A stretch of 64,000 nt of DNA from Patiria pectinifera (lineage: Eukaryota; Echinodermata; Asteroidea; Valvatida; Asterinidae). Below are positions 13,130-61,200 of this stretch, in pieces. The notes beneath the pieces were generated by a model that did no database searches, had not been told where the DNA came from, and saw only the letters and a program-made list of their open reading frames with translations. The DNA lies in NCBI GenBank assembly GCA_029964075.1, contig CM057149.1, positions 18,428,197 through 18,492,196 of the forward strand, written 5' to 3'. The translations under genes were made by a program, and so were the position numbers. How positions within the stretch are numbered: the first letter of the stretch is position 1; each line of letters opens with the position of its first letter.

Positions 13130-13636
13130 TATACATCATTTGCTTTTGCTGTAATTTTCAGAAATGGATGGAATTGGGGGGTTGGAAATATATAGCAAAT
13201 ATAGTTACACTGACTTTTTTGAGGTTTTGGGTTCAAAAATGCTATAAAAACAATCATTTTCCTGTAGTCTGGTTCCCTGGCTCCATTTAAGAAGAAACAG
13301 AGCAGTTTACATACATAGGGGAATTGTAAGGTCAGGGAACCAGTCTAGCTGGCTTGTACCCGTTCATAGGTGTGTAATCGATTGCAAACAAGTGCGATGG
13401 TCAACTGGGGCCACGTATTTGAAGAAAAAAAGCCAGTTTTTTTCCAACGCTGATTGGCCGATCAGCGTTGGAAATTGATACAAAAATACCACTTTTCTTG
13501 AAAATGACAGTATACCAGGTGCCATGATTTTACAGGATGCTTTACACTGTCATTCACTAACAGTCCAGCAAGGTATTTCAAAATGATTTGGTAGTTTTAG
13601 TTTTTGATGTTTGCAAATGTTGTATTTTCCCTTTAA
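13130..13636 (+). mobile_element. MITE, TTAA family A, copy 1
   Basis: Flanked by TTAA on both sides, with terminal repeats TTAAAGGGAATATACATCAT and the inverted TTGTATTTTCCCTTTAA. At 13443-13475 the centre holds a perfect palindrome, TCCAACGCTGATTGG / CCGATCAGCGTTGGA. An internal inverted pair AGTCTGGTTCCCTG / CAGGGAACCAGTCT is also present. TTAA target sites are typical of piggyBac and Kolobok transposases; which one mobilised this family is not shown. Confidence 0.85.
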
Positions 13637-13637
13637 T

Positions 13638-13790
13638 GGGGACTTTTGAGACATTGGTGGCAGCAAACACACCGGTCCTTTTCAATTGTTTATGTCATGT
13701 TTAAGCTAAAGCGTACATGCTCAATATGACGCAAACAATGGAAAAATGACCAGTGTGTTTGCTGCCACCAATGTCTCAATAGTCTCCAAG
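13638..13790. mobile_element. Short foldback element with ~50 bp arms
   Basis: GAGACATTGGTGGCAGCAAA on the left is repeated in inverted orientation on the right as TTTGCTGCCACCAATGTCTC. Flanking similarity extends the arms to about 50 bases, with a loop of about 45 bases. It abuts the family A element immediately to its left. Confidence 0.75.
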
Positions 13791-14789
13791 TACCAGCAGA
13801 ATGGGCATTCGCGTAACATTGGTAACATTGCGTGTTTATCCCGAATGACCTTTGACCTGAACTACTTCATCGAGCTACCAAACTGGTGTATGGAGGCCCC
13901 ATCTCACGGAGCAGAAAACATTGTATAGCAACCGTGTTTCTGCTTAGCAAGTATCGGCAGGGAGCCAGTCAAGTAGTAGTATTCATGTAGTTTGCAGCAC
14001 ATTTTAGCCGGTAACCTGCCTTCACTAAGCAAATATTTTCTGAGCTGAAACTTCTGTTTGTGGAATTTGCCCATAGTGTCTGTGATGTCAGTACTGGTCC
14101 ATTTTCAATCTGTGTTTCCGTAGCATCCGTAGACAAGGCCTGTTTGTTACAGCGTGAAACTGAACAGACACGCACAAGTGTTATTTGGCCTGCAGGGAAA
14201 CAAGGCGATATATTTGTTTAATCATTTGGCTTGGCTCCACAGAAAGGAGGGCGATATATGCTGTTTCAGTTGCGAAACGTCTGCAACAAAAATCGGTCTA
14301 AATATTAGTAGTTACTTTGCGTTGTCAACACAACTCTGTAATTCAACTGCTTGTACAAGCACAACGCCATTCTCTGGACACTCAATGAGTGTTTTGGTCA
14401 TGGGGGGGGGGGGTGGAGGGGGAGATGCATATCCGGAGCTTTCACTGCACACTTGTGAAAAATCGCACCGCTCTCTGATAAGTGACGCCAGCCATAAATT
14501 AGGCCCCGGCTTGTGTAATGGAACTGGCACTGAGTGATTAAGAAACAGTAAATCACCCTGCTAGTGCATTACGGTCCGCGAGAGTGGCAGCGTTTGGGGA
14601 TTTTTGAAAACCGACGTCATGTCCGGGTTCGTGAAGACGACACTTGGCGCTGCCGGATACACTTGAAGAGTTGGGAGTGCTTTGCATCTGGTTTTGAAAA
14701 CAAATTGTGTACTTGTCACAGAGGATGATGTTGTCGGGGCTGTTTGAGTTTAGGGAGGGAGGAATCCTGGGGCTTCTTGTAAGGATGCT
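13791..14789. other. Non-coding stretch, no gene recognised
   Basis: Short overlapping open frames only. A G12 run lies at 14402-14413. No splice-compatible exon with a recognisable domain was found. Confidence 0.4.
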
Positions 14790-15309
14790 TTAAAGAGAAT
14801 GTACAGTACAACATTTGCTTTTGCTGCAATTTTCAGAAATAAATAAATTTGGAGGATCAGTATGTTAAAGCAAATATTGTTAAAATTACTTTTTTTCACA
14901 TTTTTGGGCTAGTATATGCTGGAAAAACCAAGGGGAAAAAAATTGTTATCTTGTAGTCAGGTTCCCCATTTAAGATGAATCGGAGCAATTTATAGACTTT
15001 GGGGGTTTTTAAGGTCAGAGAATCAGTCCAGAAGGCTTGTACCCCTTCACAGGTGTGTAATCAATTGCAAAGAAAATGGGGAATAACTAATAAGGAAAAA
15101 TTAGAAGCAGTTTTTAAAAAAAAGCCAGTTTTCTCCAACGCTGGTCGGCTGGAAAAATATCATTTTTTCTTGAAAAATGTCAGCACACCAGGAGCCAAGA
15201 TCTTACAGGATGCTTTAGACTGTCATTCCCCAACAATCTAGTGAGGTATTTCGTGAAACTTTGATCATTTCATTTTGTGATGTTTGCAAATGTTGTATCT
15301 TCCCTTTAA
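14790..15309 (+). mobile_element. MITE, TTAA family A, copy 2
   Basis: Begins TTAAAGAGAATGTACAGTAC and ends TTGTATCTTCCCTTTAA. It aligns along its length with copies at 13130 and 17387, including TTTTGCTGCAATTTTCAGAAAT, AGGTCAGAGAATCAGTCCAG and CAACGCTGGTCGG, but the right half of the central palindrome is lost. Its right TTAA is shared with the start of a family C end at 15306. Confidence 0.85.
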
Positions 15310-15410
15310 AGGTACATAGGACATTTGCTGGGTTTTTTTTTTTAATTGCTCACAATCTTAAGAAGGGTGCATTACAAGTAATTTGTTGGAAGTTTCAGCT
15401 CAATGGATAA
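15306..15410 (+). mobile_element. Family C MITE fragment abutting family A copy 2
   Basis: TTAAAGGTACATAGGACATT followed by GGTTTTTTTTTTTAATTGCTC, AAGAAGGGTGCATTACAAG and GTTTCAGCTCAATGGATAA corresponds to one end of family C. It is then replaced by a SINE. Sharing the TTAA with the preceding element suggests one element inserted at the edge of the other. Confidence 0.5.
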
Positions 15411-15735
15411 TGGGTGGCTAGTGTGTAAGGTGCTTGCCTCTCGCCACTGTGGCACTGGCTCGAATCCCCAGCTGCGGACCATATGTGAGTAGAGTTTGTG
15501 CGTTGGTGCTTTTCTGTGCCATGAGGATTTTTCTCCCGGCCCTCGGGTTTTCCTCCCTCCAGAAAAATCAAACACTTGTGATCTCTGCCTGTGCTCCGTG
15601 GTCATAGATGGGTCGTATGGCGGCTGCTTAAGGCGCCTTTACATGCCAGCGGCTCAACCACATTGTAGCCGCGTCCTTCGCAATTCAGCTTCTCGGCTGC
15701 GAGTAAGGATGATTAGCCTCCCAAATTATTATTAT
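15411..15735 (+). mobile_element. tRNA-derived SINE
   Basis: The 5' part has tRNA-like promoter words (GTGGCTAGTGTGTAAGGTGCTTGCC and the B-box-like GGCTCGAATCCCC). A conserved-looking body with CTCCCGGCCCTCGGGTTTTCC follows, then a short ATTATTATTATAC tail. This layout (tRNA head, body, short 3' repeat) is that of Pol III SINEs of marine invertebrates. Non-coding. Confidence 0.75.
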
Positions 15736-17055
15736 ACATTTTGAGAAAGCAGGGAAAACATATATGCACAAATTTTGAGGTCTAGTAACTGGATTCCTTT
15801 GCTAACGCATGTAAAAACTGCCCACATTACAGGCACATGTTCTTAAACCACACTCAATGTTTGTTCATCCGAATGATATCATTTAAGGTGGAATAATTCA
15901 CAGGGTATTTGGTACCAGTCTTATCTTCTCTTTGAGCAAGGATTTTGTACGTTTCCGGGTTATTGCAAATGTTCCATAGTGCCTCTAAAGAGGAGAATTC
16001 CCCACAAAGGACAATTTTTGGTTTTCAGATGTTTAATACCCACAAGCCCCCCCCCCCCTTGTTCTTCCTTGTCGCATGACCGATCCTTGAAAACTTTGAT
16101 ATTAGAATGGATTTGAAAACGATGACTCTCGTGTGCTTTTAAAGCTTTGATATGAATTTTTATATTCACTCGGCAATGCCTGTGTTTTTCTTTATTTTTC
16201 ATTTATTTAAGGTGTTGTTTTTTACGTAGTAAGTATGACACAATGCATTGTGGGACTTGTAGACGCTGTTTTTTTTTATCATGCCTTGCATGGTTAACTG
16301 ACGCCCCAGCAACGAGCTTCCAGGGATCCGACACTCAGTGACTACAAATCCGGACTTACTTTCTGTTTGCGTCAGGGCTCAGAACCTGGCCGGCCGTAAT
16401 ATCCAAATTAAATCCGCCCACTATACTGCTTCTCATTTTTTTTGTATGTCCCAAAGTCTTTCAATTTCCTTAATTACAAAACCTCAGAGCTGCAGTTGTG
16501 TGTCTTGCTGCAGACCGGAGTCGTGCCCAGGGCTTCATAAATCCAACGGAAATGAGAATATTTTGACGGTTGTTTTTTTTGCTTGAATGTAATTTGAATT
16601 AATGTCTCTCGGTAATCAGATTACGACATGTGATGTGGAAATTTGTTATTATTTGGACCCCAAAAAGGAGGGGAGTTTACCGGTACCTTAGTGGTTCGAG
16701 AAACAAGAGTTCTTGTTCAAACATTGAAAAGCCAGCAACAAGGTTTTTGTTGAACTGTCAAAGAAATTGACAAAAGCTATTTTTTGGGCCAAAATCAAAC
16801 TGATTTTGTACGGCTTACCAGTAATTGCTTACTGTAGGGCACACAGGCTTCCAGACATTTTGTACACAAGCAATTTTGAAAGAGTAAAATTTTGTTACAC
16901 CGCACATTTAACATCATAACAGTCCCAAAAGTGATGGTAAATTCACAGTGGCAGTGTTTCTCAGCTCAGTACAGCGGTCATTTGGGTCTCTTCACGAGAT
17001 GCAAGCAGCGCCCTCTATGTTTCATGCATGTAGCATAATATTGAAACTCGTGGGG
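15736..17055. other. Non-coding stretch containing a housekeeping-type promoter motif
   Basis: No exon recognised. A C12 run is at 16047-16058. The one notable site is the ZNF143/THAP11-like word at 16245-16262, listed separately. Confidence 0.4.
16245..16262 (-). promoter_or_regulatory. ZNF143/THAP11-type (SBS) motif
   Basis: On the minus strand this reads CTACAAGTCCCACAATGC, close to the ACTACAANTCCCAGNATGC element bound by ZNF143/THAP11 at many metazoan housekeeping promoters. The surrounding ACAATGCATTGTG makes it partly palindromic. I could not place a gene start beside it on either strand, so an active promoter is inference. Confidence 0.4.
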
Positions 17056-17059
17056 TAGT

Positions 17060-17164
17060 ACAAGTAGCCTCCCAGGGTGATCAATGGAGCTTTCTGTTTT
17101 CCCAAGGCTTAGCTGAGGGAAATGGAACGCTGCATGGATCACTAAGGGAGGCTAGTTTTACTTG
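17060..17164. other. Pre-miRNA-sized imperfect hairpin
   Basis: Left arm GTAGCCTCCCAGGGTGATCA and right arm GGATCACTAAGGGAGGCTAG pair imperfectly over about 40 bases around a loop near AAGGCTTAGCTGA. The size is like an animal miRNA precursor, but short foldback transposons look the same. No expression evidence is available. Confidence 0.4.
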
Positions 17165-17386
17165 AATTTCCTAGTTTTACTGAATTAAAGACCAATGTTT
17201 GTGAAAGTTGACTGAATGAGTGGTCGGTAATTGAAACTTCCTATGTCAGTCACTAATGTCAGCATAATAATAAATCAACCATTTGATGAATTGAAACTGT
17301 AACCAAAAAAGGAACAATACATACGTGTACTTGATAAAAAAAAAATCATATTTACTCGTGGACACATCATGTCAGCATGTACCATA

Positions 17387-17910
17387 TTAAAGGGAATGTA
17401 CAACATTTGCTTTTGCTGCAATTTTCAGAAATAAATGGATTTGGAGGATTAGTATGTTACAGCAAATGTTGTTAAACTGACCTGCTTCACGTTTTGGGTT
17501 CGGAGATGCTGGAAAATCCAAGAAAACCAACCATGTTTTTGTAGTCTGGTTCCCTGACCCACGTAAGATGAAACTGAGCAATTTATAGACTTTGGGGGAT
17601 TGTAAGGTAAGAGAATCAGTCTAGAAGGCTTGCACCCCTTCACAGGTGTGTAATCAATTGCAACGAAAATGCGGAATAACTAAATATGAAAAATTAGGAG
17701 CACTTTTTGAGAAAAAGTCAGTTTTCTCCAACGCTGGTCGGCCGACCAGCATTGGAAAAATACAATTTTTCTTGAAAATGACAGCACACCAGGAGCCATG
17801 ATTTTACAGGATGCTTTGGACTGTCATTCCCTAACAATCTAATAAGATATTTCATGATAATTTGATCATTTCGTTTTTTGATGTTTGCAAATGTTGTATC
17901 TTCCCTTTAA
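17387..17910 (+). mobile_element. MITE, TTAA family A, copy 3
   Basis: TTAAAGGGAATGTACAACAT at the left and ATGTTGTATCTTCCCTTTAA at the right form near-perfect terminal inverted repeats with TTAA at both edges. The centre at 17726-17752 is a palindrome of TCCAACGCTGGTCGG with CCGACCAGCATTGGA. It is the best preserved copy in the window and a good type sequence for the family. It encodes no protein. Confidence 0.9.
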
Positions 17911-20900
17911 CTATTAAATTCCCATCAGTTGAAGTAAGTACGATCATCAAAGTGCAGGCAGATGAGTTGGATAGGCAGTGGTCTCCAACGTTCAGCCCAA
18001 AAGTCTTCGATTAATTTTCCCGAGGAACTGCAATAACCTCCAGACTGAGTTTGTTATTATCCGGAACAAATTTCTCCCTGCAGTGATATTCCGTCGCATT
18101 TAATTTCCTTCTTTTTTCTTCAAGAGAGAGAGAGAAAAAAAAACGTAACAAGATTAATCGCCACAGTCAAGAAATTATTGCCCGATTGGCCTACAGCAGT
18201 ACTCACTCCTCCAGACAATTCAGCAATCCGAGAAGGGAGAAGAAAAAAATGAAAAAGAAAAAAAATATAGACCTTCAACTGCACTGACCCACTTCTATGT
18301 CGTTTCCTCTCACGGCACAAATCAATGGTCACACGATTACCCGGCCAAAAAAAACCCCTTCAGGTGACGCAAGTCCCCAAAGAAACCAATTTTATTGGCG
18401 ACTCCGCGGGGGGGAGACCCTCTGCCCAGTCCATTTCATCGCGAGTTTGTTTCTTGTGCTGGTAATTAATGTGATTAGCATCGCAGGGTTTTGGTTCCAT
18501 CAGCCCGTCCTCTTCTACCCTCGTCCCACTTCATTTGGGCAATATCAAATCATTCCCGTACCCTAGAAAAACAAACCTGGACTTGCCCGCCCTAATTCCT
18601 CGGCAGTCGTGTTGCTTAAACTTGCATTTAGCTTGTGGCCATTTCTGTCTTGTTTGTTTCAGTGCCTCAGGGGAGAAAAGTGCTTCTTAATAGTTTACAG
18701 AGAGGTTCATCTTCTTCAGATTGGAAATGTTTTAATATAAAGAGGGTTTTTTTTTCTCTTTGAAGATTTCTCAAAGTAAAGGAATTGAACACAACATTTA
18801 ACTTCCATGGAAAAAGCTGCGTTCCCGATCAGGTGTTATTTCTGAAACGAGCTTGACCGTATAAAAGCGGCTTGTGTAACCACAAATTAATGTAAAACAA
18901 ACTAAAAGTAAAACTACATCAATTGTGTTGATGTAGTTTTCTCTTCTTTAATTGATTTATTATTTTTTTCACATTCGTTCTAGATTAAGAAAACAAATCT
19001 GCAATAAGATTGCAGATTTATTTGATCTTATTTTAAATCTTAGACGTGTAGTTTAAATCAGTGAGCATATAAACATGATTTTAAAAGCAGTGGAAATAAA
19101 CAGGCTGTCAGGGAGATTTTTTTTTTTTTTTACTGTAATCTAGCAATGCGTTTATCCAGACCCTGTTTTCCATTAGATAATACAAATTGAAGAGATAATA
19201 ACAAAAAATATATTCATAGACCGAATGCGAGATAGAGATAAGTACGATGGCCTTCCTGTGGGCCAAATGCTAGGGGGAGAGAGAAGATTATCAAATGCCA
19301 ATTTCAAATCAACATATGGTGGATCTGTTATCGCTGTATCCCATCGTTCAGAGCATTAGCGTCCGGACCGCGGCCCAGCGTTCTAAAGCCGCGACTGATT
19401 ACCGGGCAGTCTCCCTCTAGAGGGCTGCCAGGAACCTCGGGCCTTTTCCCCTCCTTTAATTTGTCTGCCGCGGGGGAAACCCGATAGGGGCCCCGCCAAA
19501 TCTCAATTAACGTTGCGTGGATCGTTACAGCCTATTTGATTTGCCCGGGTCTGGGACCTGGGCTGCTTACTAGCGTAAACAGGTAGGCCTGGAGTACTGA
19601 CTGTGGTCTGAACTGACTGGGGCGTCGTTCGAGGCCCTGTGGTTACCTATACGATGATATCAAGATGGCTTCTTAAGGTTTTAGAAACAACACCAAAAAA
19701 AACAGAGAGGGTGATAAGATTTTTTTACTGTATAATTCCACAACCTGAGGGACTCGGTCCCTCTCGAAGTTGCAACACGCTTCATGCATTTTCATCGTGA
19801 TTGAAAACGTGCTCCGAGGCTCGTAGATAGACGGCATAAATTCAAGATAGTCGAGAGATTGTGAACGCGTAAATACACGGTTGTAAAATGAATAAATAAA
19901 GAACACGTCCTTCCGAGGGACTGGCCCGTCTCCTGTTTATTGTCACAGAGGGGGAAAGACAGACTGACACATAAACAGTCAAAAAGACCTGTTGATAACG
20001 AACCATGATAGAAAGAACTCGGAAAAGGCCATTGACATAAGTCAGGCTTTGTTCAGTTGGCTGATGCCTGCACTTGATTTCAACCCTCCGAGATTGAATT
20101 TGGAATTCATTGAAAGAGATTCCGGAATGCTTTCATTCAATCATGGACATGAAATGAGTCTTAAGTTGATTTGCAGGGGAACCCTTTTTTTTTCATTGCA
20201 ATGTATATCAATTTTGAGTGGTTTTTTTTTTTAAATATCGAATTATCTTCCACTGTGGTCAAATTGCTTGTCCCGTCTTTTGCGCAGTGACGGTCAGCCC
20301 TTCATTTTTTTTGGAAAATACAAGTGTGGGGATGTTTCTTTAAAATTGTGTAATAAAAAAAATCTTGTCTGTTATCTGAACTGTGAAGTGCCATAGGAAA
20401 AACACTTGACGAATCCACGATCAAGTTGTTTTGATGTGTATGTGCAGTCCATGAGGGTGCTCGAAGGAACGACCTGGTCATGAATTATTGTAAAAAAGGA
20501 ACACGTTCTTTTTTCTTTTTATTTGATTGCTTGAAAGTTTAGCAAAAGGAACTATAGAGTGCCACTTGCGTAATATCTAGAGTTTTGTTTCTGGGAAATA
20601 TTTGGAATATCTGTTAAGGATTGTGCACTATATCCCGTAGTTATGGCATTTATTTATTATTCATGGTTGCCTTGAACCATTTTTTTTGTGGGCAGATACA
20701 TATATGTAAAGGTACTTCTACTTTAAAGTGCTTCTTTTTTTTCCCCGGATGGTTTTACATTAATTACTAGTCTGTATTAGTTGGTCATAAATATTACATT
20801 ACTTGTGGTCTAATGTTATAAAACGAGCTAACAGTTTAAGTGCTGCAGTTGTGGCCATTTTTGTTATGTGTCATTACAATCATGATTATTATTATTATTA

Positions 20901-21295
20901 TCGATGGTGATACCTTCTCCAGGTATGGCATTCAGATTTTTATGACCTTCCATTTTTTTTTTCAATATCACTGTGACAAATTTTGAATGCCAGGCATCAC
21001 CATGGCATTTAACTTCTAGGCAAAGAATCAAAGCCATTTACCTCTTCCATAACCTAGAACAGGGGTGTGAAATCTCAGCTTTAAAGCTTGATTTCAGCTT
21101 TTTTTGTTTTGGATTTCAGCTTTTTGCCTTCACTGGTTGTGTACAAAAGTATAGGAGATTTTCAAAGTTCAGGCGTTTTTTTTAGACCTTTTTCAGCTGT
21201 TTTCAGCTATTTTTATCAGTGGTCACTCACACCCTTGCTAGAAGTTGAACAAAATTTCAACTTTCAATTGACTGAAACATGAAGACAAAAAAAAA
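17911..21295. other. Mostly unique, repeat-poor non-coding DNA
   Basis: Segments about 17990-18620 and 19230-20130 have higher and more even G+C than the surroundings, no repeat signature, and clusters of TAAT/ATTA and CAAT words. They resemble intronic regulatory DNA of developmental genes. Open frames here (for example 18297-18566) show no domain and lack supporting splice structure. A small ATT repeat lies at about 20886-20903. The regulatory role is inference. Confidence 0.3.
18910..18940. other. Perfect 13-bp hairpin
   Basis: AAAACTACATCAA and its exact inverse TTGATGTAGTTTT are separated by a 5-base loop (18923-18927). A second hairpin, AAATCTGCAAT / ATTGCAGATTT, follows about 75 bases downstream. 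No flanking T-run or gene makes this a terminator; function unknown. Confidence 0.6.
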
Positions 21296-21297
21296 AC

Positions 21298-21420
21298 CCT
21301 GAGGGGGGATTTGAGCCTGTGACCTCTAGCAAGCAATACCAGTGTCTTACCAACTGAGCTGTCCGTGGTTATATTCCACTGTCTGTCCCAAGCCTGGGAA
21401 CATGTCTATTCCCTCTGGAT
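21298..21420 (-). mobile_element. tRNA-like SINE head (reverse)
   Basis: Read on the minus strand, GGACAGCTCAGTTGGTAAGA matches a tRNA D-arm/A-box and AGGTCACAGGCTCAAATCCCC a B-box. The acceptor stem does not close, so a functional tRNA is unlikely and a decayed SINE is preferred. Confidence 0.5.
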
Positions 21421-21939
21421 GGGATTCAAGTCCATCGCAGATAGATCTTTTTTATGAGGAAGCCATTTTTTATCAGGTTCCCTGAATCTGTTTTTATAAA
21501 TTGTACACTGTTGAATGGGATGGTGCCAGACTATTTTGTGAAAGCAGTGCGTTCCAAGCCTCACTTGCGATGTTTTTTTTAAAATGTGGCTTAACCCTTA
21601 AGGGGAATCCCCTTTTCTGCGATAGCCTTAAAAAAAAGAGCTTTTATGACTTTTTAGCCTCGAGCCTTGCGCATCTTTTGACACCAAAAATATAAAAATC
21701 AGACGAGGGGTTGTCGCGCAGCGAAAAATTTTCCGGCGCTATGCGCCCTGAAAACTGAATTTTATATGCGTCGTGTATACAGACGAGAATTACCATTCGT
21801 ACATATGAATAATTAATTAGCCATAATTCCAAAACCCTTTGACCTTTGGTCATGACATTTCTTGGGTATGTTCATGAAGAGTTGCTCTATGCATGTACCG
21901 AGTTTCAACATTTTTCGTCTCTCGATGGCCGAGATCTTT

Positions 21940-21969
21940 GGGGGGGGGGGATTCTGTCCCCCCCCCCCC
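21940..21969. repeat. G11-loop-C12 homopolymer hairpin
   Basis: Eleven G, then ATTCTGT, then twelve C. The two homopolymers can form a perfect all-GC stem with a 7-base loop; each strand could also form G-quadruplex or i-motif structures. Confidence 0.85.
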
Positions 21970-22174
21970 TGAGAAATGGTCAAAATAACCCGGCCCCTTT
22001 AGGGTTAAAACGTTAGGGTATGTTTCATTACAAAGTTTAAATCATTCATCAGAGCAGACTGGTATTACTTTGGAATGAACTGTTATTTCATTGCTTTCAC
22101 TTAATTCTACTCGTAAAATGAAAAGTTTACCTCTCTTTCAATTCAATATGGCCGACTGGTGAATATTACTCCCA

Positions 22175-22330: not shown

Positions 22331-22500
22331 AAGGCTTGTGCAAAACATCCTTGCGATCATTTAATTCGTGTTGGAGGCCATCACACTGTTTCCTTGGTGA
22401 CATCGGTTCTCTCTCCTCCTATCCTGCTCACTAATAGCCTATGGTGCTTGTGCATTTTTGCACTGATTACCATTTTCATGACAGTTGTAGACATGCTACA

Positions 22501-23058
22501 TTAAAGGTAGCATCCATCAATTGTAATTTGCGCATTATGTTCGTTTGAAGCAACAAAAGTGCTCAAAATGTAAAGAAGGGTGCTGAACAACTAACCTGAT
22601 GAAATTTCAGCTCAGTGAATGCTTTATATTCCAAGAAAACAATATTCTAGGATCTCAATTTCAAATCAAAAGTTGCTGAGACATGTTTTGATTTGGGCCC
22701 AAATTCAGCATCCAAAACACGTTCTCACTGTGTCAACACTAGCGCGTGCTTCGATTGCTGATACATGTACGCGATGTCGCGGACGAATTATAGCAACCAT
22801 GCGCCCGCGTGCGTCGTGTCAACACTAGCGCGTGCTTCGCCGAAAAAAAACGAACTACTAACAGAAATTTCCAACGATGCGTCCAAAGACGCATCGTTAG
22901 AAAGGCTTTCTCTCATTGATTTCTTCAAAAATACGGCTTGCCAGAAAGACTAATTTCACAGGGAGTTTAGTCCCATTACTATCTTTAAACCATGCTTTTC
23001 AATAATAATTACGTCGGCTACTTTTTGGATAGCTGCAAATGATGGACTGTAGCTTTAA
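22501..23058 (-). mobile_element. MITE, TTAA family B, copy 1
   Basis: TTAA at 22501-22504 and 23055-23058 bound the element. Terminal repeats read TTAAAGGTAGCATCCATCA and, inverted, TTAAAGCTACAGTCCATCAT. The centre carries TTTCCAACGATGCGTC paired with GACGCATCGTTAGAAA (22868-22903). An internal CpG-rich block with a duplicated CACTAGCGCGTGCTTCG is present. It matches 56246-56789 in reverse orientation. Non-coding. Confidence 0.85.
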
Positions 23059-28649: not shown

Positions 28650-28823
28650 AGTTACAAGACCCAACAAATTGTGCATATTTTCCCCCCAAAACGTAGAGTA
28701 GCCATTGAGTTGAACTTCAACAGTAAAGTGGTTATGAACCCTGCGTAAGATTGTGAGCAATTTTGTTGCTTCAAAGAAAACCAAGAAAATGCACAAAGAG
28801 CAAACGATCCTCTGTTCCTTTAA
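28650..28823 (-). mobile_element. Family C MITE fragment
   Basis: Contains TTGAACTTCAACAGTAAAG, TGTGAGCAATTTTGTTGCTTC and an end AGCAAACGATCCTCTGTTCC then TTTAA. This matches the right part of family C. The left end is missing. Confidence 0.55.
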
Positions 28824-38461: not shown

Positions 38462-38731
38462 TTAAAGGGAAGATACAACATTTGCAATTATCAAAAAACC
38501 AAATGATCAAATTATCACAAAATATCTTTCTGAATTGTTAGGGAATGACAGTCTAAAGCATCCTGTAAAGTTGTCACACCTGTGAAGACTACACGCCTGC
38601 TAGACTGATTCTCTGATCTAACAAAAATATGGACAAGTCGGTGTTACAATATTTGCTATAATACACTTATCCTCCAAATCCATTTATTTCTGAAAATTGC
38701 AGCAGAAGCAAATGTTGTACATTCCCTTTAA
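38462..38731 (-). mobile_element. MITE, TTAA family A, copy 4 (internally deleted)
   Basis: TTAAAGGGAAGATACAACAT at the left and ATGTTGTACATTCCCTTTAA at the right. At 270 bases it is about half the family length; the central palindrome is gone while both ends are intact. Confidence 0.85.
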
Positions 38732-48134: not shown

Positions 48135-48167
48135 AGAAGTCTGGTACGTTTGTAGCAAGCACAGAGC
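48135..48167 (+). other. ATRIP: ATRIP 5' UTR after a probable leader intron
   Basis: TTTATTATTTCTTTCCAG ends at 48134 and looks like a true acceptor, so a non-coding leader exon probably lies upstream. The remaining 33 bases contain the in-frame stop TAG, and ATG follows with A at -3. Confidence 0.5.
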
Positions 48168-49292
48168 ATGTCTGTCAATCCACTGTTCTCCGGGCCTGTG
48201 CCAAACAAGCGTCCTCCCATCTACAACAGTGCTTCCCCTGGACAGAGAAGGGCCAATATCTTGCGTCAGACTAACATCAACTCCGGCAACATGAACGTCC
48301 GGGACTCGCCTGCTCCGAGGAAGAAACCTCGGATTGGAGACATCGGAGAAACGGGGACCACCAACGACTCGGATCCATTCCATGACTTTGATAGTTTCAC
48401 CGAGGACGACTTGGAGTCGTTTGACATGATAGCATCCCAGGCGTTGAGCCAGCAGCCTCACCCTGAGCTCCGCCCACCCACACACACCCTCAAAAGGCCT
48501 GCCAGTGCCCCAAAGTTCCCGAATCAGGTGAAAACAAACCTCATACCACCAGCGCCCTACAGCCAAACTGTAAACAAGAGCAGCATTGTAAATAACAAAC
48601 AACCATCAAGTAGTTCCGGATCGTTGCAACAATCCCACGCCAGTGTTGGTAACGCAAGCTCTAAATTCTCCTTCAAATCGACAAACTCACGAGGAGGTCG
48701 ACCACAAGCCCAGGCCCCCTCCGGATTGCCGAATCGTACGCCGACTCCCACGTTTCCTCAAGCCCAAAGCACAAGCCACACAAGGCAAAGTAATGTCACA
48801 GGAACTAAGATCTATTACTCCTCACAGTATCACGGTGGAAGCACGCCACCAGGCAGTCACCAGCAGGCAGAGAATTTGGCTTCAACCAAAACCCCAAATC
48901 TCCCACCGAACAGGGTAACAGGGCCTCATAAGCACACCATCCAATCCAACGTCGGTGCCAAAGTCACAAATTCTTCTACATCCACCTTTCCAGCTAGAAG
49001 TACTCTACAGAATCTCCACATTGACAGGAGCAGCCGAAGTAATCCCGTCCCTTACAATACAAAACCGGGGGCCATCTCTAACAACTCTAACATGGGAGCG
49101 GGGTTCCACTCTGTACCCCCTCAGGGCGGGGGACGGAGCACCGCGAGTCTAACCCCTCCCAAGGGGGCGATAGCGAGGGAATCGCCGGGTCTACCGTCCA
49201 CAGAAAGGGGCACTGGATCGTCCCAGATCGCCACACTTCAGCAGCAACAGGTGGCCAAGTACAAGTCTGAATGCGAGACAATCAAGAAGCAG
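48168..49292 (+). CDS. ATRIP: ATRIP exon 1
   Basis: 375 whole codons, ending GAAGCAG|GTAGGA. It encodes a basic N terminus with a PRKKPR nuclear-localisation-like motif (50-55), the acidic RPA-binding helix (67-96), a long disordered Ser/Gln/Pro/Asn-rich region, and the first heptads of the coiled coil (QQQQVAKYKSECETIKKQ). Confidence 0.94.
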
Positions 49293-52200
49293 GTAGGACT
49301 CCTTGCCAGCTCCCCAGGCACTCCGTCTTGGAACCTTCCTTTAAAATCTTCCCAAATTTCGCATGGCAAAAACCCAACAGCCCATTCTTGGCCCTCAAAC
49401 TTTCCAATGGGCATCAATTCTTATTTGAAGAAATAAGTGTCTGGACACTACATCAATTTTGCAAAATCCTCACAAATCACGCTGTTGGATTTTCAAAGAT
49501 CTGGGCGGGATGGGTTTTAGTCAATCTTTCTCACAAATCTGCCCATTCTGTTACTGTGTTCCCCAAAATACCAAATAATGGACCTTGCGAATCTCTTTAT
49601 TGCATGGTTACTTTTTGTGTGAACTCTCTGTACCAAATTCTGCCAAATGTAAGCATTTACTCATTTGTTTATTTCAACCAGTAATTTACCAGTAGCAGGA
49701 TCAAATGATAGCAACTGGAGGTCAGCTGTGTAAATTTTGTGCTTTTTGTCCTCTTTAAAAAAGTGTCAGCTCTGTAGGTGGAAATGAGCTCAAATTTTAC
49801 TTTAGCTACTAGACCGGAAGAAATATTCCAAGGTTGTACGTATACAGGCCCCCATTTTTTGCTTAGGGTTCGGTGCCCAAATTGTCTACAAATAAAGTGC
49901 AATTTGAGTTCCCTCAAAGTGTTTGGTTTGGGCAGGATCAATAGATGCGAATTGGAAGGAAATAAAAAAACTCGGTGTCCTTCCTTCTTTATTTTTACTC
50001 TAAAAATGTGTTTTTGTGATACTTTTTACATGGTGGGATGACGCAATGTCACTTCTGAAGTAGCCTGCTCAGCAGAATTCACGAGAAACAAATAAGAATG
50101 ATAACGCGACTTCTCTTGACTACATGTTGTGTTTGTTTTCTTCGCCAGCTGGAGCTCCTAACCAAAGAGATGTTCAGCAAGGAGGGGGAGATACAGGTAC
50201 TGAGACAGAACCTCACCAAATCTAAGGTGGAGACTAGCCGGCTGCAGATGGAACGCTTACAAGCCGAGGAACAGAGGAAACAACAGCTCAGTGAGGTAGA
50301 GAGGGAACTCAAGAAGGAGGTGAGTGTCTGGGAACCAGACCTAAGATGCCTGTTGCATAACATGTTTGATAGGCTGTGCCCGAATCTCTTGCGTAGCCCT
50401 TACCCTGCCAAAAGTAACGGAAAGCAACAGTGGTAAAAAGTTGTTGCATACTGTTGCATTTAGCAGTCAAGTCTCATGTTGCGTTGCATCTTGTTGCATT
50501 TAGCAGGGTAAGTGCCTGTAGTGCCAAGGCTGATACAACAGAATCTACTGTTGCAATTTGTTGCGTTTAGCAGGGAAACTGTTAGAGTCAAATACAACAG
50601 AATCTACTGTTGCAGTTTGTTGCATTTAACAGGGCAACTGCACAGTGCCAAGGCTGATACAACATAAGCCACTGTTGCAATCTGTTGCATTTAGCCGGGT
50701 TATCATTTCGGCTGTGTTGCATGCTGTTGTATTTAGCAGGGTGTCCATAGAAACTCTGATTGGGGTTAGGGCTTAAAAGGTATTGATTGTTGAGGTCATT
50801 TTTTTCTGTTACAACTGGCAATTAGCATAGCCATAGCTCTGGAAGCATGGACGCAGTCTTTACTAGCTTAATTTTATCAGAGCTAAGTTTGATTAAAAAA
50901 CAGCTTCCACTTGCCTATCTGCATAGTGTCAGGGTAATGAAATGGGTCAAAATCACTCTCACTGACAAAAAATGAATTCAGAAACGAAGACATGTGACAG
51001 TAAAATTTTGCATTTTGACCACTGGAGGCATAGCTCAGTGGATCTGCTATTTAGGCATGGTAGTATCGAAAATGAAGTCCCCTTAAAACGAAGACCAAAG
51101 ATCGAAGACCCGCTCAAAAACAACGAACCACTTGAAAACGAAGACCCACTCGAAAACCAAGACCCACTCAAAAACAGTCTTCATTTTCGAGTGAGTCTTT
51201 GTTTTCGAGTGGGTCTTCGGTCTTTATTTTAGGGGTCTTCATTTTCGATACTACCACTTAGGCATTTATAGTGTATTGAAGAGACCAGTTTTAGGCCTAC
51301 TGTTAATTGTCAACCCTAACCCTCCGCAATCCTCCAAATCCAAGCAAGCTGTCTTGGAGGATTTTAGAGGATTGAGGCTGTTTGCCACAAAGGTGTCGGG
51401 TGATTTGGAAGAATACATTGTGTCTGGGTCTTAAGCTGTTTCCTGTATTGTTTATGTTCAGCTATGCATTATTGAGGCCTACAATATACCGGACATCATC
51501 CACACTGCTTCTGGATATCATCCCCACTTCCTCAATGTATTCACAGTGACTGTTGGAGGATTTTAAGGGATTGAGGCAGTGGTTACACCTCCACTGTACA
51601 AATTCAAAATACGAGGATTGAGGCTGTATCGATCGATACGTGGTGGCAGTTGGAGGATTTTGCAGGATTGGAGAATGGATCCTAGTAAAAAGGGCCTAGG
51701 TGGTTAGGGTTTTAATTGTAGCTGTGATCTGCCATTTTGTTATCCCGAGAATTACTAGGTTTTTTTTTTTTTAACTGAATGACAGAACGAAAGCTTGAAA
51801 ACCCAACTTCAGTTCAAGGAGGTGGAGCTGATGCAAGCACAGAGTGCCAGTCAGAACCATCGAACCAGACCGCCCATTTCCTCCGGCTTGAACCACGCCC
51901 CGACCACACCCACAAAGCAACCCTCAACGCCAGCGGCCAGTAAGACTGAAGATGACATCAGAGACTCGGACATGTTTCCAACGCAGCAGTCATTTATGGC
52001 GGACAATCCGAAGGTCGAGAGGGGTCAACTGAGGTCGCCCAGGGTCAGGACGCTGTCAGAAGGTCAGCCAGCCCGCAGTAGTCCCAAGAGGAGTCCAAGG
52101 CGAGGTTTGGCCAGCAAAAGTCCGGGTAAAAACTTTGGAAATAACCTTTTTGTTTTTTAGATAATTTGGCAAAATTACATATTTTCAAAATTTAAATTTC

Positions 52201-55200
52201 ACACTGCTGACTTTCTGTTAATTACCAATTTTTCTTCAGACATTTGTTTTGTCGTTATCTTGGTTCATATTTATACATTTTTTTAATGTTTTTTTTTTTC
52301 TTAGGCAAGGTATCACCATCAATTCACACCTCCGTTCCAGCCTCAAGTTCCAGCTCCTCTACCCCATACGGCAAGCCGCCCAGGAATGCCAAGAAATCCT
52401 CGTTGGTGTCAGATAGGCTTCAGAAAGGTTAGCTCTAATGCCCTTTTCACACTATCCAAAATCTCCCCGTATGATCCCCCGATATTTTCAGGAACCTCTT
52501 TCACTCGAGCAAGAATCCCACACAGCTGTTACGTGGGTCCAGCACTCTTCGTGGGTAAAACCCAAGCCCTGTCGAGGCTCTACACGGCTAGACAATTCAT
52601 AATCTAAGTCTGACCCATGTACAGACAGATGTATTAAGTGCGACTTGGTTCTGCCCATGGTGGGTGAGATATACAGATAGGTGAGACGAAAGCCTCAACA
52701 GAATTGGTGGAAAATATTAGTCCGTGTCCTATTGAGGAATCTTTGATGTCACAGGTCGGGGGTCACCCACACGCCCGCCATATTGGGCTTCTACCTAGTG
52801 CGCAAACATGCATGATGTTGTGTCGCTCAGTTACAGACTTCTTTTAGTATTACCTCCAATTGCCGTGCAATCATGATGGAATTGACAGAATATAGATCCA
52901 CAATAGAATCCACAATAGACCCAAGACCTAATGATGTCACGCTTTGTTTATGCGTGTGCTTTCCTACGAGAGCCTGGTGGTACGCATCCCACCTGGCTCT
53001 CATAGGAAAGCGCACATGTAAACAAAGCGAGACGTCATTTAAGTCTTGGGTCTATTATGTCAACGTCTGTCCAGCATGCTCAGGGTGAAAGTCAACAGAG
53101 ATACGCCGATAAATTATCTCAGCTGGGAACAAACGATCCCTATTAGTGTCAACCTGAGTCGGCAGGGCTGGGGAAGTGGTAGAATGAGAGAACAGAGCCA
53201 TTTTCTTCTCTGTTATTACAGCAAACAACCAGAAGTCAAGCCGAAAAATCTCCCAAAGCCACAGTTGAACACAAAGCTCGGATTTTGAAAAAAAACTGCT
53301 GAATCTCATGCTTTCCTGTCGCTAGGAGTGGAGCCCACAATAAACGTCTGTTCTGTTCTTTTTTTTTTCTTTTCGAAGCTTCGTCCGCAGAGGCCCAGCT
53401 CATTGGCATTTTGTTAGAAGACACAGAGAAGCAAGCCACCACGGCTGGATCCGTGGGTGGGTTGATGGGTCTAGTCCAGAGTACTGGGTACGACAGGGTA
53501 CCACCCAGCGATGGAACGGATGCTGTGATACCAGGACAACCGTTGCCTGCCAAACCCAAAAAGTAGGTCAAAAACTACGCCCAATTTTTCTCGAAGTAAA
53601 ATCTTCCTCCTGAAACAACTTCATTTTTTTGTCTGAGCGCAAGCTACCTCTGCTCTGGGCCTAATTTCATATTGCTGCTAAGCACACCATTTTCTGCTAA
53701 CAGAGCCTCCATCTATTTCATAGATGGAGACCGTAGGCAGTAAGCTTACCTCAGAGCAAAATGTTGCTTAAATCCTTGATGCAACAATATAAATCTCCGT
53801 GTGCACGCAACCATTAGCACATCTACGCCTTGAAATAGTGCTTAAGGTTAGCAAAACTTTCTGCTATAGTTAGTACAACTTTGAGGTTAGGTTAAATCTG
53901 GAGAAATTCTTCCCAACTCCTATTTTTGCGGAAATAACTTTGCTCTTTTATTCCCAAGTTTAATGGTAGAGCATTTCATTTGTCATTTGTTCTTTTTTTT
54001 TTCGTTTAAAGCAACGAAAGTGCTCAAAATCTAAAGGAGGGTGCTTAACAACTAACCTGATGAAGTTTTAGCTCAGTGAATGCTGTATATTCCGAGAAAA
54101 AAAATATTCTATGATCTCAATTTCAATTCAAAAGTTGCCAAGTCATATTTTGCATTGCACCCGAAATCAGCGTCCTGGACACGTTCTCATTCAGCCGATT
54201 GCAGCTGCATGATGTCACACACTGAACCGATGAATTATAGTAACCACACGCGTGTATGTCATGTCAACGCCTGCACGCACCCATTCACGGCTTCGCCAAA
54301 TTAAAAACAAACTACTGATGGAAATTTCCAAAAATGCGTCTTTAGACACATCTTTGTAAATGACCTTCTTTTATTGTTTTCTTCAAAATGACAGCATGCC
54401 AAAAAGAACAATTTCACAGGGAGTTTTGTGCCATTACTATCTTTAAACCAAGTATGGTTTTCAGCAATAATATCAACAATTACTTTTTGCTGTAAAAAAT
54501 ATACTCTACCTTTAATTCTAGTTTCTGCTAAATTGCACTCTGCATATTTCTTCATTCTGTTTCATTATGTATGAAACGTTTGCAATGGTGTTCCTCCCTT
54601 TTTTCAAATGATAATTAGAGTGTTTGAAACAAGGTTTTGTTTCAACATTAACAAGGTTGTGTTTGTTCATGTTATGATTTGTCTCAGTTTCCGTTTTGTC
54701 CTGCCTAGAATTTAAAAAGTAATTCCTTATTTCCTTTACCTTTTCTTTTTAGAGTCTCACCAAACAAGAGGCAGCTGATTCATCACAATGAAAATCCCTC
54801 GCATCGCAGTGTAGAGCTAGCAACCAAGGCCATCTCTAACATCCTGAATCCGCCCCGCATCCCACCGCTGCCACCAAATGTCGCCCACCAAGTACCTCCC
54901 CACAAACCACCAATGGGCAAATCTCAGGACCTGGAGTACCAAGACCCTGCAACCTACATCACGGACCTCTTGCCTCTCATGGAGGATCAGTTGACCTCCT
55001 ACATTGACACGACCCACAGCATAACCCAGAACAATGCCCCAGCCCTCTGCTCTACCTGTCCCAGTAGCAGCAGCGGTGGTGGCAGCGGGGGTCGGAGCCT
55101 GGAGTCCTCCCTCGACTCTTCCGGATCCAGCAGTCCCAGCGAGGAGCTCATGGCGTTAGGCCGTGCCGAATCAGCAGTGCTCACCTCCTTGACTGCCTTG

Positions 55201-58200
55201 GGTAAGATGGTGACTTGTTCTCCCACCGTGCAGACTGCTATCCTCCATGCTGGGACCTACAAGGACCCCGAATCCCCTGGAAGCGATGAAGACGTTTCAG
55301 CCATGGAGATAGACCCATCGGCACCTCTCATTGATGTGAGTTGTCTAATTTAACCTAAGCACTAAGAGTAAACTATAACTTTACCCTTTTGAAAGAATGT
55401 CAGTCTGCCAGACATTGAGTGAATTTCAGGATGCAAACTGCAATCTCTAAGGACACAAACTGGAGCGATTTGGAAGGTGCTCATTTTCTTATCGGAGGCT
55501 CAGCTTGACATTCCTCAGAGATTGTGGCTGCTCAACCTGCATATAAACTCATGCAAATAATGGCATTTTGGAGGGTCTAGTAACACAATGGTCAAAGTTT
55601 TAAAAATGGAGGTCAACATTCGTTAGTGATACTTCCAAAAACCTACATCACTAAATATAGGAATTTAATTTTCTAATAGCTAAGACTTGTTTTCACAGTG
55701 AAATTCTGATTAAGGGTCAAAAACTAAAGCTACAAGTGTGTGATAATCATTTAAGTCAGTTTTACCATTTTTGTCTGTGTAGCTTAAAGGCACATAGGAT
55801 CATTTGCATTTGCCCCAAAGGGTAACATACCAAATTATTATCAAAAAGCTTACTTGAATTAAAGATCGTACTGGTACTAAACACCCTGTGAAATTATTCC
55901 GTCTGGCTTGCTGTCATAAAGAAAAAATCAAGAAACGTTGGTGATTTCCAACGATCACTTCAATTGACTGATGCTTGGAATATTCAAAATGCTATTGAAG
56001 AAACAGTGTTTCGTGCTCCAAAGATTGTGCATGGTTTTTCACTGTTTTCTCGAAAAGTGAATTATCCACTGAGATGAAACTTCAACAGTTTAGGATTTGA
56101 ACATTATTCTGTGGATTTGGAGTGGTGATGTTATTTGAAATGAATAAAATGCATCGAAAGCAAATGATGCTAATATTTGGATGCAAATATCTCACAAATA
56201 TGAGCCATACGCTCAAAGAAGATTTTACCACTCACTTTTACCTACTTAAAGCCAGAGTCCATCATTTGCAGCTATCCCAAAAGTAACTGGCATAATTACT
56301 GTTGAAAAACATACTTGGTTGAAATATAGTAAGGGGACTAAACTCCCTGTGAAATTATTTTTTCTGGCAAGCTGTCATTTTGAAGAAATCAACGAAAGAA
56401 GGCCTTTCCAACGGTGCGTCTTAAGAAGCACCGTTGGAAATTCCCGTTGGCAACTAGTTCGTTTTTTTATTCGGCGAAGCGCACGCAAGCATTGACACGA
56501 CTCACACGATCGCGCAGTTCGTCGGATCGGTGCGCGACATTGATAGCTGCAATCGGCTCAGTGAGAACGTGTCTCGGACGCTGAATTCAGGCCCAATTCA
56601 AAACACGATTCAGCAACTTTTGATTTGAAATTGAGATCCTAGAATGCTGTTTTTCTCGGAATATACAGCTGAAGCTGAGCTGAAACTTCATCAGGTTAGT
56701 TGTTCAGTGCCCATCTCTAGATTTTGAGCACTTTCGTTGCTTCAAACGAACAAAATGCACAAATTACAAATGATGGACTATATCTTTAACATATTTTGCT
56801 ATAAGAGTCTGCCTGTTTTCCCATATACAGCCAACTCAAGCTCCGTCTAAATCAGCCGGCCATTCATCCGTCGTCCATGAGCCCCAACCACCTCAGCCGC
56901 CCACTGACAGCTTCCCAAACCGGCGCAGTAATCATATCTTGAGCAAACTGATGAGGATTGCTAGTATGCAGCACGGGCTGGGCAACTGTGGTGCTGTCGT
57001 GGAGTCTTCCATGGACCTGCTGCGGATTATTGTCCAGAAGTCAAACAAGGAGGAATATGAAAGGTATGTAGGGTTTCCAACGAGACCACAGCAAAAACCT
57101 CAATTTGAATGAGCCTTGTATTTACCTTTTTCATTGAGTCATGTATATCTACTTATAGTGCTGCAGCCGAACCGCCGAACCGAGCTAAAAATAGCAGAAC
57201 TTGGCCTTCCAAACCAAACCTAACCCAAACGTCGGTTCGGAAGAGCTCGGCAAGTATTTGTTGCTAGCGCTAGAAATGCTTATGCTTGCAATGAAAGGGC
57301 AAAATTAAAGTGCATGGATGCTTGAATTTACCATGTTGACAAGTCACTGCGTTCATCTTCATTATTTGCAGTGTTCTAGCAAGGCATACAATAGGATATC
57401 GGGCCGATACGCTTTGAAAAAAATCGTACGCACCTTGCGATTTTCTCAATGAAAAGTGTGCTCTTTGCATGTAATTCATCCAGCGTGGTCAGTATCCGGC
57501 CCTGCTGCGCCGTGTTCCAGCGTGACGTAGTACGTTTGGACCAAACCAATTCGGGCGATTCACAATGCAGTGCGCCACCAAGAGTTTGCCACGGAGAGTT
57601 CATTTTTCAAGTTTACGGTTGACAAAACACGGCCCATTTGAACGAGTGTCAGTAGACAACTTGAGCTATTTTGTTAAGGATTGGAGCACAGCGTTCTGCC
57701 GTCTTACAAAAAACACCATATTGATAAAAAGAAAAGAAAAAGGCAAACAGATACTTGAATCATACGCTTACAAAACTACTGACCGGAAAATTGAACAATT
57801 TCAAATGTCCCGCGCTGCAAATTTGTCGACCATCTCCCACAATGTACTGGGAAAAATGAACTCTCCGTGGCAAAGTCTTGGTGGCGCACTGCATTGTGAA
57901 ACGCCCGAATTGCGGTGAAGGGTATGCTTTCCTTGGCAAAATTTACCAGCATTTTTAGTTTTTTTCACCGTGTCAAAATTAAAAAAAATACTTTTTATGG
58001 AGTCTGAAACCTTTCCCATGTTCAGAATAAGTTCTAAATTTTCGCAAGATATTTTTTTTCGCAAAGGATGTATACCAAAAACGATGTAATCTCCCAAAAG
58101 AGGGTGAAACACCCTTTACAAAATTAATGGATCCGTCCAATCGCGAATCAAAAAGTTATTATTTTTTTTACGGTAGCTACTTGTCAGCTTGTTGTTAAAA

Positions 58201-61200
58201 TAATTATGATTTCATTAGTTTGGCACAGTAAAAGTTTGGAAGATTGAGGATGGTACCTAGCAAAAATGTCCTAGGGGCTTAGGGTTTAGCCAGCCTTTAG
58301 CGTTTAGAGAAATTGGCCTGATCATGTTTCACATGTTTTTCCTGTAATTTACAGCTCAATCTTGTGAAAGTCCTGCAGCAAACTTAAGCCTTGTTAAATC
58401 TTATTTCCCGTGTAGGTTACAATCCCTCCTAGTCCACGACGCTCTGTTCAACGCCATGTGTCGAGACAGCACCTTCACCCAGGTGTCTCATGCCCTAGAC
58501 ATCGTGAAAGCATTGAGTTCATCCTGGAAGCTTACTTGCAAGCTGTGTAACCAGTCAGGTAAGTTGGCTGGCGCCCGTTTCAGGCCAGTGTTCTTCCTTA
58601 TTACTCTGAAGATTTCAATTAAGTCGACATTTAAAGGGAATATACAACACTTGTAAACATCAACAACAACAAAACTACAAAATTATAATGAAACACCTTA
58701 CTTGACCGTCGTTGGAAAATAACAGACTTTTTGAAAATACTGCCCCCAATTTACCAAATGTAGTTAGTGCACATTTTGTTTGCACATCCGTGACACATCA
58801 GTTAAACGTCCGTGAACGGGTGCAAGCCAACTACACTGGTTCCCTGACCTAACAATTCCCCGACGTCTATAAATTGCTCCCTTTTGTCTGAAGTAGGGTC
58901 AGGGAACCAGACTACAAGAACAGCATTTGCTTCTTGGTTTTTCCACTATCTACATGTATGAACACACAATTTAAACGGGTCAGTGTAGCAATATTTGCTA
59001 TAAAATACTAACCCCTGAATCCATCCATTTCTGAAAATAACGGCAAAAGCAAATGTTGTATATTACCTTTAAAATAGTTCTGAGCAACTGCACGCTCAAG
59101 ATGTCAGATCAAAGGATTCAAGATCAACTGTTCGGAGAGGCAAAATATGATTTTGTAATAAATTTCAATGGATTCATTGAAAACAGCACGTCTGTATTGC
59201 GAGAGATCGGGGAAGGGAGATTGGAAGAGGGTAGGGCGCTCCGGTTCCCCAGCCTATTTTCAGATTTTTGTTTAAGATGAAAGGTTGAACTCATATTTTC
59301 CTTGTTTTTCTTCTGTTAGATTCCTGTCTGCTGCTACAGTGTTATCAATGTGGTGTTCATGGATCTCAGAGTTGCAGCAATCAACAGAAAGTCCAGCTTA
59401 CTGTCAAGGTACCGTCAAATTGTCAAAATTATGCCAGACAAAAAGCCAATGACCTTCCCATTTCTAATGAAAAGCCTTTAAATTTATTGAGAATTGTGAA
59501 AATGCTGGAAAATTGTCCCTTTTCTTATTTGTAATGCAAGTTTGTCTCGTTACATACTGGAAACTCATTCACCTTTGTTTAAAAGCTAAAAATCTTTTAG
59601 AGTTTTACCTTTTGATGTTTGCAAATGTATATGTTTGCAAAAGTTTGCAAATGTATATAAACCAATTTGAAATGAAATGAAATGAAATAATACCATTAAC
59701 CTTTATCACTTTGTGCCCGTTCAGGTGATCTCTATTCTATGGAGGATCATAGGCACACACCACCAGGGACCCACCATGCTGTTAGACGCTGACTGCCAGT
59801 GTAGTCTGGAGGTAGGATTACAAAGTAAAACTAATGCCTGTCCCAAGCCAATATGGCCCATAATTCTGGTGTTTATCTCCGGTTCCTTGGTATAAAACCA
59901 TTGACATTATTTCTATTTATTTTAATATTGGAGTCTTATATAGCGCACGTGTCTACCAACAATTAGGTACTCAAGGCACTGGAAATTATTTCTATTATTA
60001 ACCCTACCCATCCTCAAAAAAAGCAAAAAAGTGTCGGTTGATTTTGGAGGATGCATTGTATCAAGTTTTCGGGCTGTAACCAGCATTGTTTATGTTCAGC
60101 CATGCTAAAATTGAGCCTTGCATTATGCTCGATATCATCCGCACTGAGGATATATCATACAGAACGTCACCGGCACTGCCTCGACCCATTAGCAGGGATT
60201 GTTGGAGGATTTTGAAGGATTGAGGCAATGGTCACCCCGCCACTGAACAAATTCAAGAAATAGTGCATGTTTTGATGGATTGAGGCTGAATCCAATTTTT
60301 TCATGGTGGCAATTGGAGGATTTTGCAGAATTGAGGATCCACAAATGCATCACAATGGTGCATTGAACATGCAACAAGTATAGAGCATACATGCATAAAA
60401 AAGGAAGTACAATAGACCGGAATGCAAATAGGAAGACTGCCATAGCCAAATATTATGCATCACCACGTATGTATTGTTCACGATTCAGTTACTTTTCCAT
60501 TACTTTTTTTCTTGCGGTATCAACTTTCCATGACTCATTATAAAATAAGGAAACCCCACCGCTTTCTGTGGTAGCTTTGAATTCCATGATTTTTCCATGA
60601 CTGCGGGAGCCCTAAAATTAGCTGGGGGAGTAACATGCATCCAATCCAGGGTGGGGTGCTGTGGTACTATGGTTACGGTGTTCGACTCATGTGCCGTGGT
60701 AAATTGGTTATGGGTTCGAATGCTGACCGTGGGAACATGGTACTTGTGCTCTTGAGCAAGGCACTTTACCATTATAATGCTTCGTCCTTCGGATGGGACG
60801 TAAAGCTGTAAGTCCCATGTGTTGTGCAATGCACGTTAAGAGAGGTGAGTAAGTGGAGGGGAAGTGATGGCATATTTACCGGTATGTTGTGTTGATTATT
60901 GTATTCCTTTGTTTTTGGTTTCTCTGTAGCTTGTCAGTGCAGTGGTATTGATGCTCAGGAGGATGTTGAATGTAATGCAGTTGACGATGAACTACCAGCA
61001 TCCCACTCAGTACTGGTCAGTGTAGCATTGAATCATTTCAAACGTTCCACTGTGAACACCGCCTGTTCAATTTCAACCCGTAGTGTACTGCCGGGAACAC
61101 AACCTGCTCAAATTTGGACACGTGGTGTTCTGCTGGGAACGCCACCTGTTCAAATATGAATACATTGCGTACTGTAGAGAACACCACCTGTTCAAAGTTA

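Follow-up and report, generated by a model that had tools for sequence, protein, structure and literature searches.

TTAA-flanked elements in the window

Several short transposon-derived elements in this stretch of DNA carry a palindrome in their interior, which raises the question of whether such a centre is retained as a sequence, as a symmetric structure, or simply by descent. We examined this question in the window, meaning the whole 64-kb stretch of DNA analysed, and in copies from the surrounding 613.5-Mb genome (1020 contigs), where TTAA-flanked MITEs with AG...CT (Kolobok-type) ends are abundant. The elements are short and non-coding, as judged from the stop-to-stop frame list of the window, have inverted ends of 24 nt, and are present in high copy number, and therefore classify as MITEs. 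Their positions, together with those of their palindromes, are given in Table 1.

A preliminary description of this DNA had listed copies of three families, A, B, and C. These elements are real, but several had been misdescribed. The TTAAAG start reported for them was recovered in family A at 13120, 14790, 17387, 38462, and 58631, in family B at 22501 and 56246, and in family C at 55784, with the first of these positions corrected from 13130. Position 54006, taken for an end of family B, lies inside a truncated copy on the reverse strand whose one end is at ~54512–54515, and the C copies lack either the right end (C1) or the left end (C2). Copies absent from the preliminary description are C3 (15306–15988), which represents in the window a fourth family, D, found in this analysis, and half-copies at ~2401–2546, 10761–11029, and 28669–28822.

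TTAA is present at both ends of seven window elements (A1–A5, B1, and B3), and a single TTAA at 15306–15309 is common to A2 and C3, as expected from a 4-bp TTAA target duplication. A search of the window with joined flanks, run without a shuffled control, found no empty site, with best scores of 17–20 for A2, A3, A4, A5, B1, and B3 and higher scores for A1 (34) and C3 (43); we therefore infer the TTAA duplication itself.

Other features were observed in or beside these elements. The interior of C3 (window positions ~15415–15725) contains an insert with a tRNA-like head and a stretch that, by eye, resembles MetaSINE central domains. Rfam and tRNA scans of the window did not report this insert, and neither of the two places that they did report lies within an element. 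A Pfam scan of nine window frames gave one match, below its cut-off, and solved-structure searches with three window frames gave weak matches only. Directly adjoining A1, at 13637–13788, is an inverted repeat with 46-bp arms separated by 60 nt. Exon-like frames on the + strand extend over window positions 48156–61815, which would make B2, C1, B3, and A5 intronic; the frame at 61513–61812 weakly resembles ATR-interacting protein chains (E 0.19), a gene name that serves as a lead only. This resemblance and the layout of the window suggest animal DNA.

Table 1. Elements of families A–D, their relatives, and their central palindromes in the 64-kb window.
Feature	Description	Position	Strand	Remarks
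A1	Family A MITE, 517 bp	13120..13636	-	TTAA at both ends
A2	Family A	14790..15309	-	One palindrome arm partly lost; right TTAA common with C3
C3	Family D copy	15306..15988	-	SINE-like insert, decayed centre; other terminal TTAA changed to CTAA
A3	Family A, 524 bp	17387..17910	-	
B1	Family B, 558 bp	22501..23058	-	
A4	270-bp deletion derivative, without palindrome	38462..38731	+	
B2	Family B, one end truncated	54000..54515	-	54006 not a terminus
C1	Family C, right end lost	55784..56170	+	
B3	Family B, 544 bp	56246..56789	+	
A5	Family A, 442 bp, single palindrome arm left	58631..59072	+	
C2	Family C, left end lost	140..465	+	Palindrome persists at about 213–262
D1	Right-half relative	2401..2546	+	
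E1	Diverged relative	10761..11540	-	Clear match 10761–11029; weak match 11436–11540 (E 0.017)
F1	Right-half relative	28669..28822	+	
A1 centre	Central palindrome	13441..13474	.	16/17 pairs
A3 centre	Central palindrome	17727..17756	.	
B1 centre	Central palindrome	22868..22903	.	
B2 centre	Decayed central palindrome	54325..54360	.	
C1 centre	Decayed central palindrome	55945..55980	.	
B3 centre	Central palindrome	56405..56440	.	17/18 pairs

Palindromes in the window copies

Six near-perfect palindromes (arm ≥14, mismatch ≤1, loop ≤6) occur in the 64 kb. B3, A1, and B1 have the three longest at their centres, and the one at the centre of A3 shares fourth place with an unrelated palindrome at 18991–19023. 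It had been claimed that all copies carry TTTCCAACG, usually as a perfect palindrome. Both arms are exact in only two of the ten listed copies, A1 and B3, each of which has one mismatch further in; the arrangement TTTCCAACG...CGTTGGAAA occurs exactly in these two places in the window and in none of 100 shuffles. TTTCCAACG is exact on one arm in B1, C1, and A5 and present only as variants in A3, C2, and B2, and the palindrome is partly lost in A2 and wholly lost in A4. The window contains nine sites of the TTTCCAACG 9-mer, two of which (51975 and 57074) fall outside all elements, in stop-free exon-like frames. Among IMG/VR viral contigs there were no matches to the family A end; 22 stretches with the 9-mer palindrome were set aside as likely chance matches, judged from short contexts alone, and one match to an echinoderm-type MITE end was by eye no MITE end.

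Homology between families

Genome queries with B3, A3, C1, and half of C3 returned 4986, 5329, 4319, and 1126 first-look, unscored candidates, respectively; 40 places were scored per query, and all 40 matched. For each of the four families we fetched 20 copies, chiefly those ranked highest, and these therefore lean towards the query. Two pairs of A copies (L053/L054 and L057/L058) are likely segmental duplicates by their flanks, and all four were kept in the consensus. Consensus lengths were 524 (A), 550 (B), about 396 (C), and 396 (D), and median divergence from consensus, window copies included, was 0.035 for A, 0.036 for B, and 0.081 for C.

According to the preliminary description, the families differ over most of their length. 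Once A is reversed, however, the interior from one end to the palindrome proves to be homologous in A, B, and C (0/300 shuffles). A family B profile matched reversed A over its first 195 positions in A3 (E 4.8e-9) and A1 (E 2.1e-5) and more weakly in A2 (positions 1–148, E 0.023), and a family A profile matched C1 (E 8.4e-7) and B3 (E 2.3e-6). After removal of ends and palindrome, A1 and A3 compared with B1, B2, B3, and C1 gave z scores of 4.0–5.4 (0/300 shuffles each), and six control comparisons with the other half of A gave z scores of −1.0 to 0.9. Left-half interiors gave z scores of 6.0 for A–B, 7.8 for A–C, 3.9 for A–D, 19.1 for B–C, 8.9 for B–D, and 13.5 for C–D, with 0/500 shuffles in each case. 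The other half is common to B1, B3, C2, C3, D1, and F1 (0/300 shuffles in all 15 pairs) and has no clear similarity in A, where the best comparisons were A3 with B1 (2/300) and consensus A with consensus D (16/500). Family D shares both halves with B and C, and its central palindrome is of unrelated sequence. The earlier picture of a related, radiating set of TTAA MITEs with common ends is supported, but not its claim that nothing besides ends and centre is retained: with ends and palindrome set aside, one entire half is homologous across the four families, and between D and the other families it is the sequence of the centre that has changed completely.

Position and symmetry of the palindrome across families

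Consensus palindromes have 18/19 (A), 18/18 (B), 16/18 (C), and 12/12 (D) pairs, the last being a perfect palindrome of 24 bases with a sequence unrelated to those of A–C. The best zero-loop palindrome is centred 169 (A), 177 (B), 178 (C), and 178 (D) nt from the left TTAA, and each exceeds all of its 300 mononucleotide shuffles, D narrowly (12 vs a maximum of 11). A conserved, potentially functional central palindrome had been proposed; what is conserved over the four consensuses is its position and symmetry, but not its sequence. That a symmetric stretch persists at a similar distance from one end, despite changed letters, hints that symmetry rather than sequence matters.

Among the A, B, and C consensuses, five of the nine inner stem pairs have both partners altered and form a pair in each consensus that contains them; one of the five is a gap in A. 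Little change is seen in the outer nine pairs of A and B and on one arm of C, the C consensus having two outer pairs broken. Pair 10 is C-G in all 22 A copies having both arms, G-C in more diverged A copies of a random sample (L127, L119:3774, and L114), and A-T in B1, B2, and C. Of the 116 cells in a hand alignment of seven window copies, 100 were Watson-Crick pairs, compared to a shuffle mean of 80.9 (0/5000 shuffles as high), a comparison that ignores relatedness. One alternative is that a single ancestral palindrome was inherited by families too young for it to have decayed. The near-constancy of the outer nine pairs agrees with such descent, but both partners of inner pairs have changed between families, and in D an entirely different palindrome occupies this position. 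This last observation largely refutes descent alone, unless the D palindrome arose by chance, and we regard descent alone as improbable.

The random sample comprised 20 stretches of 10 kb, in which 11 element stretches were read across the centre, leaving out centre-reaching pieces in L113 (C), L123 (C), and L125 (A). A recognisable palindrome was present in 7/7 A and 1/2 C stretches and in 0/1 B and 0/1 D stretches. The D copies are diverged, and several of the 20 lack a symmetric centre by eye. A second internal inverted repeat (CTGATTCTCTGACC / GGTCAGGGAACCAG) was observed at about positions 291–365 of the family A consensus.

Decay of the palindrome within families

The preliminary description had suggested looking for compensating changes in the stem, and the answer is divided: between families, changes are two-sided and still paired, but within families the copies show one-sided decay. 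Leaving out A2 and A5, each of which lacks one arm, one-sided changes compared to two-sided paired changes numbered 13 vs 2 in A (22 copies), 43 vs 3 in B (23 copies), and 50 vs 1 in C (22 copies), or 106 vs 6 in total. One-sided decay in resident copies combined with two-sided paired change between families indicates that pairing was kept in family-founding lines. Imperfect forms have multiplied too, as 17/23 B copies are mismatched at pair 14 of the stem, in one of two ways. The two principal subfamily forms of this pair mirror each other (G.A vs T.C), as inversion of the hairpin tip would produce; two independent changes may also account for it.

We also compared divergence of the palindrome with that of the neighbouring interior in fetched copies (L054, L058, and the window copies left out), a comparison on which the original proposal of a conserved centre had been staked. 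The centre is less diverged than its neighbourhood in A but not in B or C. In family A, 3/540 non-CpG positions differed in the palindrome vs 277/7539 in the interior (p 8e-6), and 9/144 vs 54/324 CpG positions. The corresponding values in family B were 12/560 vs 184/8147 for non-CpG positions and 23/160 vs 111/1149 for CpG positions, at which the palindrome is if anything more diverged (p 0.07), and in family C they were 43/677 vs 350/6102 and 4/40 vs 66/276.

A probable fold-back origin

The left half of D resembles its own inverted right half (global 0/500 shuffles; local z 5.6, 0/500) and also the inverted right halves of B (0/300) and C (2/300). The same shuffle test detected no signal between the left half and the inverted right half of B or of C, self-comparison of A was weak (20/500 global, 98/500 local), and the other ten cross-comparisons of inverted halves were weak or not significant (lowest 17/300). 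Because the halves of D are still alike when inverted, a fold-back element is the probable starting point of the lineage; this ancestry, read mainly from D, is the simplest account. The same genome contains a TTAAAGAGG family of nearly full-length fold-backs with TTAA ends, of 500 bp (L119:5206–5705) and 471 bp (L130:1713–2183).

Copies without the palindrome

The palindrome is missing in A4 and at two other loci, L133 and L134, which appear to have one common deletion junction; L132 represents a different deletion. A search with L133 gave a contiguous match over the deletion in 4/40 scored places, query included; three of the matches lie within 68 kb on one contig (C10) and are candidates for a common junction by match alone. 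The presence of apparently one deletion at different loci suggests that the palindrome is probably not strictly required. The deletion also takes out other sequence and so provides no clean test of this need. Elements without the palindrome did not spread much, such derivatives being rare among the 40 scored places.

Discussion

Classification of the lineage

The Kolobok superfamily is characterized by a TTAA target and 5'-RR...YY-3' termini (PMC9587614). A TTAA target is found in the window elements and in most A and B genome copies, with TTAA within a few bases of the expected ends in 19/20 (left) and 17/20 (right) fetched copies of A and in 20/20 and 18/20 of B, and in fewer copies of the older family C (11/20 and 8/20). 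Consensuses of A, B, C, and D all have AG...CT termini.

A close parallel is the Xenopus T2-MITE of the Kolobok superfamily, which likewise combines a TTAA target, ends that begin with AG, and a long-lived set of multiple families (PMC6004289). T2-MITEs are defined by TTAA plus terminal AGGRR (PMC6004289), whereas here this motif is found in family A only (AGGGA), with AGCTA in B, AGGCA in C, and AGGCA/AGGTA in D. The string 'palindrom' occurs 0 times in the main text of the T2-MITE paper (PMC6004289). Like fold-back MITEs, the elements combine an inverted repeat with a hairpin tip; unlike them, families A–D are clearly symmetric only at the ends and the tip. Central palindromes, again of a different sequence, also occur in abundant echinoderm MITEs with TTAAAGGCAC ends. 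Among the matches listed for the Kolobok/TTAA/T2, echinoderm, and palindromic or hairpin MITE literature we recognised no paper on these elements, which does not imply their absence from print, and the matches listed for the terminal strings were all unrelated by title.

Mobilisation by piggyBac, as for the coral CMITEs, appears highly improbable: CMITEs are also TTAA MITE families with an internal region conserved between families, but they are about 100 bp long, keep internal sequence rather than internal symmetry, and have piggyBac-type CCC ends, the piggyBac signature being CC[C/T]T (PMC2872659), whereas the elements here begin with AG and end with CT. Identification with KolobokP solo LTDRs is hardly credible: these apparently non-autonomous units resemble our elements in their RR/YY termini, short inverted ends, and size of several hundred bp, but they form part of composite elements, fall into two length classes (about 450 or 660 bp), and make 3–5 bp duplications without a strong sequence preference or strict TTAA (PMC9587614), in contrast to the near-constant TTAA in the younger families A and B and the consensus lengths of about 396–550 in A–D. 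We therefore set both candidates aside on the basis of ends, target, and length.

How the tip may have stayed symmetric

Our preferred reading, to which we give roughly even odds (about 0.5) as a whole, is that families A, B, C, and D belong to a single old, non-autonomous, Kolobok-type TTAA DNA-transposon lineage derived from a fold-back element, in which the hairpin tip was kept symmetric in propagating copies. The common halves, the TTAA ends, the position and symmetry of the palindrome in four consensuses, the two-sided changes between families, and the one-sided decay within them are direct observations; mobilisation would be by a Kolobok transposase acting in trans. On this account, the lineage would have started as a single long inverted repeat; its two arms would later have diverged from each other, with one half probably replaced in A. 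The ends would have stayed symmetric because a transposase must recognise them, and the tip, about 169–178 nt from the left TTAA, would have stayed symmetric as well. In copies that seed new insertions, the bases of the tip would be replaced over time without loss of self-complementarity; the likeliest reason is that a dyad site, or a hairpin or cruciform, at the tip helps transposition or amplification. Dead copies would lose pairing through ordinary mutation. As we read the data, symmetry in propagating copies was kept by selection or by template switching, with selection as the cause in the scheme just outlined.

Neutral upkeep is the alternative with a real, if lesser, chance of being right. 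Template switching in replication, which would work best near the tip, could keep the tip of an old fold-back symmetric with no need for a function. Such switching is able to generate and restore perfect stems (PMC8794818), nearly full-length TTAAAGAGG fold-backs are present in the same genome, the complete sequence turnover with retained symmetry in D fits creation of a new stem, and the two main variants of B pair 14 are mirror images. However, one-sided decay in resident copies far exceeds two-sided paired change in A, B, and C, and subfamily forms differ mostly by single pairs, not by blocks.

A further reading is more speculative. A site fixed in its distance from one end and in its self-complementarity, but free in its letters, might constitute a third, sequence-independent cis element beside the two ends, acting as a hairpin or cruciform, or as a dyad bound by shape, in transposition or amplification; we put this reading forward only tentatively. 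Internal sequences are known to raise or lower the mobility of mPing (PMC9921582).

MITEs are usually described by their ends. In B, C, and D, which have both halves in common, and in A, which shares one half with them, a palindrome has been kept at one position while its sequence was replaced. The lineage thus lets one ask, as in a natural experiment, whether mobility depends on internal secondary structure, and its numerous copies, which differ in age within one genome, offer a means of distinguishing selection from repair by template switching.
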